NCBI GenBank assembly: GCA_029261235.1
Contig: JAJDBS010000260.1
Location: 1 to 36,530 of the forward strand
From: Nitrospirales bacterium
GTDB lineage: Bacteria > Nitrospirota > Nitrospiria > Nitrospirales > UBA8639
DNA length: 36,530 bases
Direction: 5' to 3'
Shown: positions 31,102-35,383 of the stretch, piece after piece
Layout of the letters: every line of letters begins with the position of its first letter
Position numbering within the stretch: position 1 is the first letter of the stretch
Made by a program: the position numbers and the translations under genes
The notes under the pieces: generated by a model
What the model saw: only the letters and a program-made list of their open reading frames with translations
Told to the model about the DNA's origin: nothing
The model's database searches: none

Positions 31102-31223
31102 GAATCATGACGTTGGTGTCTTGCAAAAAATGCAGGTTAAGAAGTAGGGTAGGGGGTTGCCAAGCCATTATTTTTATCATGGACAAATGAGTCCACAACA
31201 GCCTTGAACATGAGAGGCTATGG

Positions 31224-31342
31224 GGTCGGTTCAAAAGAGCCGTCCAGCAAGGCCACAGCCAAATTCAGCCGCGGAACGTACGTTTTGTACGTGAGCACAG
31301 GAATTTGGTGGGAACGCTGCTGGCCGCTTTATTCAACAGACC
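31224..31342 (+). repeat. Long covarying hairpin repeat, copy 1
   Basis: The 80-bp core (31244-31323) starts CCAGCAAGGCCACAGC and ends GAACGCTGCTGG. Nested pairings are CCAGCA/TGCTGG; CCAAATTC (31259-31266) with GAATTTGG (31301-31308); and CGTAC (31277-31281) with GTACG (31287-31291) around GTTTT, followed by TGAGCAC. Imperfect outer arms (31224-31243 with 31324-31342) extend the hairpin. It ends 20 nt before the fumarase ATG. The second copy is at 35076-35198 on the other strand. Confidence 0.85.
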
Positions 31343-31362
31343 AACATTAGAGGAGTAGGTTC

Positions 31363-33024
31363 ATGGGAAGTTTTCAGTATCAGGAATTGTTTGAACATGC
31401 AGCCGACACGACCACGTATCGAAAGCTTACATCGGATTATGTGTCCACCAGCACATTTGAAGGCCAGGAGATTCTCAAAGTCCAACCAGAAGCGCTGACC
31501 TTGTTGGCTCGTGAGGCAATGGATGATGTCACCCATCTCTTGCGATCGAGTCATCTCAAGCAATTGGCTAAAATTTTGGATGATCCTGAAGCTTCAGGAA
31601 ATGATCGATTTGTGGCCATTGAACTCCTGAAGAATGCGAATATTTCCGCGGGGCGAGTGTTACCTGGATGCCAGGATACCGGAACGGCCATTGCTCTTGG
31701 ATATAAAGGCCAACAGGTGTTTACCAGTGGGGACGATGTAGAAACCCTCTCCCGAGGAATATTTGAAGCCTACGATCAACGAAATTTGCGGTATTCGCAA
31801 ATGGCGCCCCTCGACATGTACACCGAGAAAAATACGGGAAACAATTTGCCAGCGCAGATTGATCTCTATGCACAGAGGGGATCTGACTATCGGTTTTTAT
31901 TTATAGCCAAAGGTGGCGGGTCAGCCAACAAAACCTTTCTCTATCAAGAAACCAAAGCCTTATTGAATCCCACGTCGTTGATGAAATTTGTGGCGGAAAA
32001 AATACGGACATTGGGGACCTCGGCCTGCCCGCCTTATCATTTAGCGTTAGTGGTTGGAGGGATGTCAGCAGAGTTCACCTTGAAAACTGTGAAGTTAGCC
32101 AGCTGTCATTATTTAGATGACCTCCCCACGTCAGGCAATGCGCAAGGTCGTGCCTTTCGAGATCTAGAACTAGAAAAACAAATTTTTCAACTCTGTGCCG
32201 AAACTGGCATCGGTGCGCAATTTGGTGGGAAATATTTTGCACATGATGTCCGTGTAATTCGCCTACCACGCCATGGAGCTTCGTGTCCTGTGGGTCTGGG
32301 TGTATCTTGTTCAGCAGATCGACAAATTCTGGGAAAAATTAACAAGGACGGCGTCTTTCTCGAACAGCTCGAAACCAATCCCGCGCAATATCTTCCCGAG
32401 GTATTGGAAAACGATTTAGAGGGAGAAGTCGTCAAGATCGACTTGAATCGACCGATGCCTGAAATCCTAACTGAATTGCGCAAACATCCTGTAGCCACCA
32501 GACTTTCACTCACAGGTCCTATTGTTGTTGCGCGAGATATCGCCCATGCTCGACTAAAAGAACGATTGGATTCAGGGAAGGGCCTTCCCCAATACCTGAA
32601 AGACCATGTGGTGTACTACGCGGGTCCTGCCAAAAAACCCGAAGGCCTTGCCTCAGGTTCTTTTGGCCCCACCACCGCAGGACGCATGGATTCGTACGTG
32701 GACCAGTTTCAAGCTGAAGGTGGGAGCATGGTCATGTTGGCCAAGGGCAATCGTTCCAAGCAGGTGCGTGAAGCCTGTGGAAAGTATGGTGGGTTTTATC
32801 TCGGCTCCATCGGCGGCCCTGCCGCTCGTCTAGCCGAGCATAGTATTAAAAAAGTGGAAGTCTTGGAATACGAAGATCTTGGCATGGAAGCGGTCTGGAA
32901 AATCGAAGTAGAAGACTTCCCTGCCTTCACCGTCATCAATCACGAAGGCAAAGACTTTTATGCAGACCTGGACGACAAAAAAGCCTCGGGCCTTATTCAA
33001 GTAGGTGACTCGGTGAAAAAGTAA
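31363..33024 (+). CDS. fumA: Fumarate hydratase, class I
   Basis: Iron-sulfur fumarase converting fumarate to malate, in the TCA or reductive TCA cycle. The 553 residues are the fused one-chain class I form. The three [4Fe-4S] ligands are in place: Cys103 (LPGCQDTG), the Cys of [16 protein letters not shown] and the Cys of [11 protein letters not shown]. The C-terminal beta domain shows [31 protein letters not shown] and [22 protein letters not shown] precedes the ATG by 8 nt. The long hairpin repeat lies just upstream, so the gene probably has an independent or modified leader. Confidence 0.96.
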
Positions 33025-33049
33025 CGATTTTATAATGGAACTGTAAACC

Positions 33050-34186
33050 GTGAAATTCCGAAAAAGAAAAATGTGGTTGAGTATGGTGGCAACTCACGCT
33101 CTCTGCTTAGGGATCTTTTTTTGTGGTTTTGCTATTTCCCAAGAAGCTTTTGCGCAATTGTACTATTCTCCACATGAAGATATGGATACGACCACCGTGG
33201 CATTCAGCCCAGATGGAAAATATTTACTTTCAGCCGGTTTTCATGGAGACATTCGGTTGTGGAGAAGGGACAGTTGTGAATTGCAAGGTATTGTGTTGGT
33301 TCATGACCCGCGGATTCCACCAAATGAAGTGCAAAAGGAGTTTCCAGAATACCTTGGTTTTGGACGTGGGATTCTTTCTCTAGCTTGGAGTCCAGATGGA
33401 GCCAAATTTGTCTTTGGTCTTCGAGACCGTACAGTTCGTTTGTATTCTTTTAATCCTGAGAGTTCTCAAGATCGCTTGTTTGAAGAACTTCATGTTTATG
33501 ACGGACATTTAGGAGGAGTAAGGGCTGTTGCCTATAGCCCCGATGGCGAGTGGGTTGCATCAGGTGGGCACGATGAAAGTGTTCTGTTGTGGAACGTCGA
33601 ACAAGAGGGAGGCAGTGTTAGGAAATACTGTTGTCACGCTGGAATGGTGAATGCTGTAACGTTTAGTCCTGATGGACGGTATGTTCTGTCCGGTAGTACG
33701 GATTCCAAGGTTCGAGTTTGGGATATGCATACTGGGGAAATCATAAAGGAGTTTCAATCAGAGGGAGAAGTTTATTCAGTTGGATACAGTTCAGATGGTC
33801 TTTATATTGGGGCGCCGGAAGACTCATATACGGAAATTTATGGTAGGCACAACCCCATAATTTTGTGGAACCTGACTCCTGGAAAAGAGCAAAGACAATT
33901 GTTGGGTCATGTCTCCCCATCCTGGGCAGTAGACTTTAGTCCGAATGGTCGTCACCTTGCTTCCGCAGGGCAAGATGGAAAAGTAATGATTTGGGAGGTC
34001 AGTACAGGAAAAGTTTTTCAAGAATTGACGGATCCGAAAGAACAGCATTCTTTTCGGTCTATTTCCTATAGCCCAGATGGAAAGTATATTGTGGCAGGAA
34101 ATCAATCCGGTCCTCTACCGTTATGGGATGTTGAAACAGGTAAACTTGTTCGCGAATTTGGAAAATGCCATCAAAATATGAAATAG
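33050..34186 (+). CDS. Exported WD40-repeat beta-propeller protein
   Basis: A 378-residue protein with a Sec signal peptide (basic KFRKRK, hydrophobic VATHALCLGIFFCGFAIS, cleavage after AFA). Seven WD40 repeats follow, each with an F/Y-S-P-D-G turn and a W-x or equivalent end. Examples are AFSPDGKYLLSAGFHGDIRLW, VAYSPDGEWVASGGHDESVL, VTFSPDGRYVLSGSTDSKVR and VDFSPNGRHLASAGQDGKVM. Seven repeats close one propeller, so it is likely a complete periplasmic or surface scaffold. The start is GTG 33050 with only a weak GGA upstream; ATG 33071 is an alternative. It follows the fumarase by 25 nt, but no functional tie is evident. Confidence 0.88.
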   Translation: MKFRKRKMWLSMVATHALCLGIFFCGFAISQEAFAQLYYSPHEDMDTTTVAFSPDGKYLLSAGFHGDIRLWRRDSCELQGIVLVHDPRIPPNEVQKEFPEYLGFGRGILSLAWSPDGAKFVFGLRDRTVRLYSFNPESSQDRLFEELHVYDGHLGGVRAVAYSPDGEWVASGGHDESVLLWNVEQEGGSVRKYCCHAGMVNAVTFSPDGRYVLSGSTDSKVRVWDMHTGEIIKEFQSEGEVYSVGYSSDGLYIGAPEDSYTEIYGRHNPIILWNLTPGKEQRQLLGHVSPSWAVDFSPNGRHLASAGQDGKVMIWEVSTGKVFQELTDPKEQHSFRSISYSPDGKYIVAGNQSGPLPLWDVETGKLVREFGKCHQNMK

Positions 34187-34281
34187 AAGGAATTGAGTAT
34201 TGTGTTGTGCAAAGCTAGGGTATGGGGGCGAGTTTTTTGATGAGAGTTAAGAGCATTAAAAAGTCCATTTCTTTTTTATTT

Positions 34282-35055
34282 CTATCCTTCCGAAGTCGTG
34301 TTTTTTTCGAAGTATCCGACGTTTAATTTTCGGTGAAACAGCTCTAGGATCATGCTGTTGCTAATCTGGGTAGTAGCTGGATCATATCGATAGCCCTCGT
34401 CGCGGAGAAAGGCATGGGCGTTATTAAACTCATGCCATTGAAAGTGCACGTTGTGGTCGGCGAGCGCGTTGTAGATTTCTGCTCGGCCTTCGCGGGGGAT
34501 ATGTGGGTCTTGTCTTCCCCAACCCATCAGTAGTTCCCCTTGTATTTTCCCCACTCGGTCTAGCGTATCATCGTGCTTGTCTTTTCCTAAGCTATGGGTG
34601 TGGATATCCGTAGCGTAAAAACATACTCCCGCTAACACATCCTGGTTCATGGCTGCTCGAAAGGCTAAATGCCCTCCCAGGCAAATCCCCATAACTCCAA
34701 GTTTTCCGGTGCAATGTTCAAATGTGCGGAGATAGTCCAAGGCTGCGCGGGCGTCGGCATCGTAGCTTGAGAGCGTCTTCGTGATTTTGTGCTGATTGCC
34801 ACGGTCGGTGTCCGGTTTGTCATAGTTGAGAACGGTGCCGAGTGGCTCCAGTTCATGATAGACCTCAGGGACGAGTACCACAAAACCATGCCCGGCTAAG
34901 AAAGTCGCGATCCGTCGAATGGGCCCGGTAACCTGATAAATCTCGGAATACAACACGATCCCAGGGTATCGACTTTTCGGAGCTGGTCGAAAAATATAGC
35001 TGCGCATCGGGCCGGTCGCGGTGGGAAGATCAACGGTCTCGGTGTCTGCAATCAT
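34282..35055 (-). CDS. Dienelactone hydrolase family protein
   Basis: A 257-residue alpha/beta hydrolase with a cysteine nucleophile: MGICLGGHLAF carries Cys125 in the G-x-C-x-G-G elbow typical of dienelactone hydrolases. The acid lies in the MGWGRQDPHIP segment, and NNAHAFLRDEGYRYDP gives the His. True dienelactone hydrolases act in chlorocatechol breakdown, but many paralogues have other substrates. GTG 35058 and ATG 35055 are adjacent candidate starts with GGAG upstream. Its leader begins about 20 nt inside the second copy of the long hairpin repeat, in the same relative orientation as copy 1 before the fumarase. It converges on the WD40 gene. Confidence 0.9.
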   Translation of the reverse strand: MIADTETVDLPTATGPMRSYIFRPAPKSRYPGIVLYSEIYQVTGPIRRIATFLAGHGFVVLVPEVYHELEPLGTVLNYDKPDTDRGNQHKITKTLSSYDADARAALDYLRTFEHCTGKLGVMGICLGGHLAFRAAMNQDVLAGVCFYATDIHTHSLGKDKHDDTLDRVGKIQGELLMGWGRQDPHIPREGRAEIYNALADHNVHFQWHEFNNAHAFLRDEGYRYDPATTQISNSMILELFHRKLNVGYFEKNTTSEG

Positions 35056-35075
35056 CACAAGCAGTCTCCATTCGC

Positions 35076-35198
35076 GGGAATGATGAAAAAATCCACCAGC
35101 AGCGTTCTCGCCCTTTTGACGTGCTCACGTACTGGAAGTACGCTCCGCGCGTCAAAAGTGCTGTGGCCTTGCTGGGTGAACTTTTTGACCATTCCCGT
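35076..35198 (-). repeat. Long covarying hairpin repeat, copy 2
   Basis: On the minus strand the 80-bp core (35175-35096) again begins CCAGCAAGGCCACAGC and ends GAACGCTGCTGG. The inner stem is CTTTTGACG with CGTCAAAAG (35150-35158 and 35113-35121), different in sequence from copy 1 but still fully paired. The CGTAC/GTACG hairpin is kept with a different loop, and TGAGCAC is invariant. Outer arms near 35076-35095 and 35176-35198 (GGGAATG with CATTCCC, plus A/T runs) extend it. It ends about 20 nt before the dienelactone hydrolase start. Confidence 0.85.
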
Positions 35199-35383
35199 CA
35201 GTTGCTGACCATACAATTTACAGGAGTATTGACAAGCTATTCTGAGAAATATTAAACAGCTCTTTCGCAGGAGATTCAGTACCTTTTTGCTGACTGTGAT
35301 TATACCTCATTATCGTGAGCAGTCGTGAAAAAGAGAGAGGAGATCTTCAGATTGATCTTGGTTTATCTTGTGCCATGACAGCT
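35199..35383. other. Intergenic stretch between hydrolase leader and FAD dehydrogenase end
   Basis: No supported gene or motif. The plus-strand frame from 35315 overlaps the dehydrogenase gene and has no recognisable content. Confidence 0.35.

Follow-up and report, generated by a model that had tools for sequence, protein, structure and literature searches.

The 36,530-nt window analyzed here, from contig JAJDBS010000260.1 of Nitrospirales bacterium GCA_029261235.1 (hereafter the source genome, G000), contains two copies of a long hairpin repeat, which we refer to as W1 and W2. Both belong to a large, order-wide family of non-autonomous transposons, of the miniature inverted-repeat transposable element (MITE) kind, in Nitrospira-type bacteria. 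The original prediction had located two 80-bp cores at 31244-31323 (+ strand) and 35096-35175 (- strand); both are present there, and the sequence blocks described as common to the two cores are exact in both. Overall, the cores are identical at 60 of 80 positions. The inner stems pair as described (CCAAATTC/GAATTTGG and CTTTTGACG/CGTCAAAAG), but the statement that every base had changed was overstated, as two T-A pairs are unchanged between the copies. Compared with dinucleotide shuffles over 120 nt, both copies fold strongly, with 0 of 200 shuffles as good in each case. The features of the locus are the following.

31222-31345, + strand: W1 hairpin, forming the right half of the element (R1 covariance model: 116.6 bits, E 4.4e-26; fold z -3.6)
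31152-31343, + strand: approximate full W1 element; left end eroded with a low left-end score, no clear target duplication, flanks joined in relatives
31312-31323, + strand: W1 block GAACGCTGCTGG, in the position of an insertion-sequence motif (GGCGTTCTCG, read on the other strand) to which W1 is an inexact match (AGCGTTCCCA)
35076-35263, - strand: full W2 element, 188 bp; left end AGAGCTGTTTAATA, right end GGGAATG (read inward); empty site in G001
35074-35197, - strand: W2 hairpin as delimited by the model, covering the right half and 2 bases of flank (R1, 133.8 bits, E 2.3e-30; fold z -7.5)
35096-35107, - strand: W2 block GAACGCTGCTGG, at the same place as in W1; W2 has AGCGTTCTCG, 9/10 of the motif GGCGTTCTCG
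35071-35075: 5-bp target-site duplication at the right end of W2, TTCGC on the + strand
35264-35268: 5-bp target-site duplication at the left end of W2, TTCGC on the + strand
31363-33024, + strand: fumarate hydratase gene, outside the element (PF05683 E 1.8e-82, PF05681 E 2.8e-75); start codon 17 nt past the W1 match
34282-35055, - strand: dienelactone-hydrolase-family gene, context (PF01738 E 1e-31); start 18 nt past the W2 match

In the orientation of the element, the W2 duplication reads GCGAA; W2 is among the lower-scoring rows of the source-genome set. At both sites (31345-31363 and 35055-35076) a terminator-like hairpin stands 17-18 nt ahead of a sense start codon, an arrangement that may be due to chance.

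The original prediction had proposed a covariance-model search of this genome and its relatives, which returned many further copies rather than the absence named as counter-evidence. Model R1 was built from an alignment of 22 copies (A1) that includes W1 and W2, whose own scores are therefore no independent test. With 150 of 1309 candidates scored in the source genome, at least 118 matches were obtained at E <= 0.01, one of them the opposite strand of another, giving at least 117 places, the weakest of them partial. The central 12-mer GTACGTGAGCAC occurs there 97 times at up to one mismatch (47 exact), compared with 7 for the reversed pattern. R1 matches were found in 55 of 59 Nitrospirales genomes, the source genome included. 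A pattern scan of a species-genome collection pointed to the same group: among the 80 loci listed (of at least 120 stretches), 77 are titled Nitrospira, Nitrospirae, Nitrospiraceae, Nitrospirales or Nitrospirota, and the other 3 come from one isolate titled Nitrospinota. Viral contigs gave 0 matches. We found no description of such a family in Nitrospira among the open-licence papers listed, which is weak evidence of absence.

Extent of the element and its empty sites

To describe copies across genomes, we denote by f1 the family within the order to which the source genome belongs, and by f3 and f4 two other families. The 203 model matches yielded 132 f1 hairpins (131 distinct) and 27 f3/f4 hairpins (26 distinct); the 44 matches left out were opposite-strand matches, insertion-bearing copies, long variants and further identical copies.

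The element is larger than earlier described, the hairpin forming the right ~123 nt of a unit of ~190 bp. The start of this unit, ~66 nt upstream of the hairpin, is GRGNCTGTTGAATA; the right arm of the hairpin closes it, reading GGGNNTGTTGAAAAAAG in reverse. The left ~66 bp are poorly conserved overall, with partial conservation in the left flank of the hairpin. A typical f1 element measures 189-193 bp and is bounded by terminal inverted repeats GGGNNTGTTGAAWA, the short length and inverted repeats that characterize a MITE. In G026 the f1 end pattern gave 121 matches against 1 for a control, and 14 copies of 189-190 bp in G026 and G034 are bounded by exact end patterns. The left end was recognized in 114 of 131 f1 hairpins, compared with 8 of 131 in a downstream control span.

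Target duplications support these boundaries. Exact 5-bp direct repeats flank the predicted ends of 17 of the 43 well-delimited copies (from 71 source-genome copies fetched), whereas shuffled flanks averaged 0.5 and never exceeded 3; no duplication of 6 bp or more was seen among the same 43. Across f1, 60 of the 114 full-length copies carry an exact 5-bp duplication, without obvious motif. In f3 (G053, G057, G049), the same hairpin core lies inside elements of 197-201 bp with ends CAGGNTGCGGAAAAA and a 4-bp YTAR-type duplication, present in 10 of 30 rows (10 of 14 with a clear left end; CTAG, CTAA or TTAG in 8 and ATAG in 2). One hairpin thus occurs with two kinds of ends and two duplication lengths. 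In f4 (G047), three end patterns recognized the left end in 0 of 8 copies, which may carry another type of end.

Several variants of the element were also observed. L216 has the left end GGGACTGTTGAATA and the right end GGGAGTGTTGAAAAATGCCGCCAGCGGCG in ~198 bp and, with the similar L222 and some G016/G018 matches, perhaps represents a sister MITE subfamily. L197, L199, L200 and L201 (G053) are long hairpin variants with a model match of ~192 nt and a conserved but different middle. In the source genome, L004, L005, L006, L022 and L027 bear a second hairpin of ~31 bp (CCTGCCT...GAAGCCGCTTCGGCAGGCATG and variants) at the same point of the right loop, GA|GAAC, and L021 bears another palindrome, CCTGAGCCTTGTCGAAGG, within the left loop; these nested palindromes show a preference for loops.

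Comparison with relatives reveals that both window copies were inserted. G001 has an empty site for W2, with the flanks at window positions 35073 and 35264 found at positions 1501 and 1503 of its locus. G005 also lacks W2: only 59 bases separate flanks that are 236 apart in the window. W1 is absent from G007, G006 and G010, where window positions 31154-31175 are followed by 31344-31346 with 10-31 bases between; in the W1 copy itself the left end is gone and no duplication is evident. The hairpin model found no match in any of the 22 relative loci fetched for the W1 and W2 regions.

These sites bear on the suggestion of a folded RNA made in the original prediction; such an RNA could be a free-standing RNA gene or a riboswitch-like leader. 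The leader position of both copies, their strong folds and the covariation described below are what such an RNA would display. In contrast, relatives lack the hairpin at both sites, the opposite of a conserved position before orthologous genes, and Rfam gave no match above its gathering score for either hairpin in the window. The right neighbors of the 71 source-genome copies, as assigned with a simple custom gene caller, are sense in 31 cases, antisense in 37 and not called in 3, so that no leader preference is apparent. We therefore consider a structured non-coding RNA very improbable. The sole window match above an Rfam gathering score is a group II intron (RF02001, 2866-3034, 84.8 bits).

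Insertion sequences with matching ends

A MITE has no transposase of its own, and an insertion sequence with the same ends should exist. Such sequences were found for both end types. In G053, L196 is a 1316-bp insertion sequence with f3 ends CAGGCTGCGGAAAAA and the duplication TTAG, as in f3 MITEs; its transposase exceeds the IS5_4 cut-off (NF033581, 278.9 bits, cut-off 140) and thus belongs to the IS5 family. A distant relative of this transposase led to four f1-ended insertion sequences: L226 in G012 (1224 bp), L227 in G002 (1228 bp), L229 in G015 (1226 bp) and L230 in G033 (1220 bp). L227 has ends GGGACTGTTGAATAA and the duplication TATAG. The f1-type transposase contains PF05598 and PF01609 above cut-off and was matched in 9 of 59 genomes, in several as broken pieces only; one of the nine is an f3 genome (G046). 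In this genome, L228 encodes an f1-type transposase 90% identical to that of G012, a hint of transfer between families.

Other routes to the partner were also tried. Among 18 PF01609 loci in five genomes, only L124 has loosely similar ends (GGGCTTGCTGAAAAAAG), and it lacks a target duplication. A search for exact f1 end pairs 1-3 kb apart returned no f1 insertion sequence among the matches listed; the approach succeeded in G053. In G018, L213 is a 2.8-kb end pair with the MITE right-end sequence on both sides.

The original prediction had read the invariant blocks as unpaired motifs. This does not simply apply, as the right-hand block resembles an insertion-sequence end motif. The motif GGCGTTCTCG starts 19 nt after the start of GTTGAA in 75 of 131 MITE right ends and also in L226 and L227; because these two are close relatives, their agreement counts as one case. 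L230 has the variant GGCGTTCGCG, and L229 has no such motif. The shared offset suggests that the right-hand block is transposon end sequence.

This block, shared at the same offset with one insertion-sequence lineage, together with an inner arm that repeats most of the right terminal repeat, is also what might be expected if the fold served transposition itself, with a cruciform or single-stranded right end recognized by the transposase and the terminator-like appearance as a by-product. Against such a role, the same-ended L196, L226 and L227 have no match to the hairpin model, so that such elements do not need the fold, and the hairpin occurs with two end and duplication types. We regard this explanation as possible, though doubtful.

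The proposal that a transposase mobilizes the hairpin fits the data; its attribution to a repetitive extragenic palindrome (REP) and a REP-associated tyrosine transposase (RAYT) is not supported. High copy number, mostly intergenic sites and a palindromic sequence would fit a REP-like hairpin moved by a Y1/HUH enzyme. REP/RAYT insertion, however, is not known to leave a target duplication, whereas the present elements have terminal inverted repeats, 5-bp or 4-bp duplications and insertion sequences of the DDE type with the same ends. RAYT genes were not searched for. According to PMC3733652, REPs are 20-40 bp long, compared with ~190 bp here, and their hairpins carry a GTAG or CGTC tag at the foot. 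A REP/RAYT origin is thus very improbable.

Covariation along the hairpin

The hairpins were aligned with MAFFT without use of structure. Because RNAalifold gave almost no structure on the 131-sequence alignment, the consensus was folded and the resulting pairs were tested by parsimony on a FastTree tree; because the structure is thereby tied to the consensus, controls with slid partners were included. Covariation exceeds the tree-aware null in two separate sets, and is therefore not absent above phylogenetic background, the outcome that the original prediction had named as speaking against it. Internal branches of f1 carry 10 two-sided pair-keeping changes, where the null gives 1.2 and reaches that count in 0 of 1000 cases; terminal branches carry 30, where it gives 10.0. 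The corresponding values in f3/f4 are 11 versus 0.9 and 18 versus 1.9. Single pair-breaking changes in f1 fall below expectation (60 versus 91 internal, 300 versus 367 terminal). With partners slid by 1-3 columns, the counts are near the null, the largest excesses being 8 versus 4.8 and 3 versus 1.1. Alignment A1 likewise has a covariation score of 0.230, compared with 0.103 when shuffled and at most 0.073 when slid.

The pairing follows a particular pattern. Inside the outer arms, 123 of 131 f1 and 22 of 27 f3/f4 copies retain a C·C mismatch. Its right C is a base of the terminal repeat; on the inner arm a C stands where exact mirroring calls for G, and this spoils the internal copy of the terminal repeat. 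We infer that the mismatch may stop the inner arm from acting as a second transposon end. In 44 of the 131 f1 copies, the variable NN bases are readable at all three sites. Among these, the inner arm agrees with the right end in 40 copies and the left end agrees with the right end in none of the 44; since 34 of these copies share one type (AA), they are not independent cases. The feature preserved is pairing inside the hairpin, rather than identity between the two transposon ends.

Selection on structure, as originally proposed, would account for the covariation, which itself stands above the null; selection as its cause competes with a mutational origin. When templates are switched at a quasi-palindrome, one arm is rewritten from the other, a process that is described for RNA hairpins (PMC8794818) and needs no function. 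Co-changes on terminal branches, where selection for mobility should be absent, are consistent with this, as is f3/f4, where internal and terminal branches do not differ (26:20 versus 45:35, p 1). In f1, by contrast, pairs are kept more often on internal branches (63:63 versus 165:316, p 0.002), a difference that selection on those copies that later transpose would predict. Most co-changes are isolated single pairs rather than blocks, and wholesale correction would erase the C·C mismatch and the conserved blocks flanking the internal loop. We therefore see template switching as a minority explanation of the pairing.

Placement beside genes and comparison with known systems

By the same gene caller, the copies are mostly intergenic. 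In the source genome, 19 of the 37 antisense right neighbors have a stop codon at -3 to +2 nt relative to where the model match ends. Across f1, the right end lies -4 to +6 nt from such a stop in 11 of 17 copies that lack a recognizable left end, compared with 12 of 114 full-length copies (Fisher p 3e-6), whereas the left ends of full-length f1 copies are flush with a stop in only 1 of 114. Among recently inserted copies in G009, flush stops are rare (2 of 18 antisense neighbors), and both are at copies without a left end. These data are best read as truncated f1 hairpins surviving where they end a gene. A4 and T4 tracts, which would fit a terminator, are present on both sides of 111 of 131 f1 and 23 of 27 f3/f4 hairpins.

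We considered that the flush genes might be transposases; by eye they are diverse ordinary genes instead. Nor do the flush positions represent conserved orthologous terminators, with one weak pair among 34 flush genes (L012/L174, 42% identity). In G009, at L142, L146, L156, L158, L161 and L165, the stop of the upstream gene precedes the element's left end by 87-94 nt.

Taken together, the ends, duplications, empty sites, same-ended insertion sequences, covariation and position bias, all read from sequence, make it probable that the family is an IS5-like MITE and that selection maintains its right end as a hairpin resembling a bidirectional terminator. We propose that an IS5-like DDE transposase from an insertion sequence with the same ends would act in trans on the MITE, cutting at GGGNNTGTTGAAWA and inserting it with a 5-bp target duplication. 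The right ~123 bp would fold into a single long hairpin whose base is bordered by A-rich and T-rich tracts and which could act as an intrinsic terminator in either direction. The sequence would drift with its pairing preserved, except at positions of transposase recognition, for which a mirror image on the inner arm would have to be avoided. Once inserted, copies would decay, and the hairpin half would tend to survive directly behind a stop codon, where it would probably be the terminator of that gene.

Several observations weigh against this interpretation. The flush bias is not significant in f3/f4 (7 of 14 versus 3 of 13, p 0.24), a set in which 8 of the 14 copies without a left end are f4, whose left end may be of another type; 3 of 13 f3/f4 left ends are themselves flush with a stop, and a flush bias in f3 is easily caused because YTAR contains stop codons. 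A terminator scan listed neither window hairpin, its loop limit of 3-8 bases excluding a stem this long, and a site just ahead of start codons, as for W1 and W2, is an odd place for a terminator. Among the four two-ended f1 insertion sequences, L227 is the sole one with a target duplication. The f1-type transposase falls below both nearest NCBIfam cut-offs (IS1182, 149 bits against 270; IS5_4, 133.7 against 140), and for this reason we term it only IS5-like. It has no match in the source genome, G009 or G026, where the active partner is therefore missing or different. Finally, two-sided pair-breaking changes also exceed the null, in f1 (3 versus 0.9 internal, 17 versus 9.4 terminal) and on internal branches of f3/f4 (4 versus 0.7), so that part of the clustering is not structural.

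We further hypothesized, more tentatively, that the hairpin itself is the unit under selection. It would then be a mobile two-way terminator that spread through the order on at least two transposases, with 5-bp and YTAR-type ends, guarding host and element from read-through, and that was later stripped and kept as the terminator of unrelated genes. If so, Nitrospirales would draw many gene terminators from one transposon family. If the truncated copies of the IS5-like MITE are indeed working terminators, they would provide a clear bacterial case of transposon debris turned into gene punctuation.

Covariation is usually read as the mark of a functional RNA, and here it is found in a transposon. 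The family may thus serve as a natural test of selection on structure versus arm-to-arm copying in replication, with many copies that can be ranked by age through their target duplications. The repeat is also widespread among environmentally central nitrite oxidizers, where it occurs in nearly all genomes of the set while its window copies have no counterpart in Rfam.

The MITE kind is already known; what is new is the covariation, the occurrence of one hairpin with exchanged ends, and the presence of stripped copies next to stop codons. The closest parallels (PMC10969869) are Chunjie of Geobacter uraniireducens and QMITE2 of Coxiella, MITEs mobilized by insertion sequences. They resemble the present elements in length (~180-235 bp), terminal repeats and target duplications, as well as in having tens of copies or more, intergenic sites, truncated copies that look like REPs and transcripts predicted to fold. 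The Nitrospirales family differs in a fold that covaries above a tree-aware null, an order-wide distribution and two end and duplication types; the likeness is by description only. SPRITE, a rho-independent-terminator-like repeat of Streptococcus pneumoniae treated in the same text, is alike, by description, as a dispersed terminator-like hairpin, and we claim no relationship.

With the IS5 family (PMC11677980), the f3 elements share a 4-bp CTAA/CTAG-type target and a PF05598 and PF01609 transposase with matching ends, whereas f1 elements have 5-bp motif-less duplications and a transposase that misses the IS5_4 and IS1182 cut-offs. Intrinsic terminators of Bacillus cereus (PMC5381666) show similar pairs of disrupting and compensating stem mutations; those are terminators in close strains of one species, whereas the hairpins described here belong to a dispersed transposon family.

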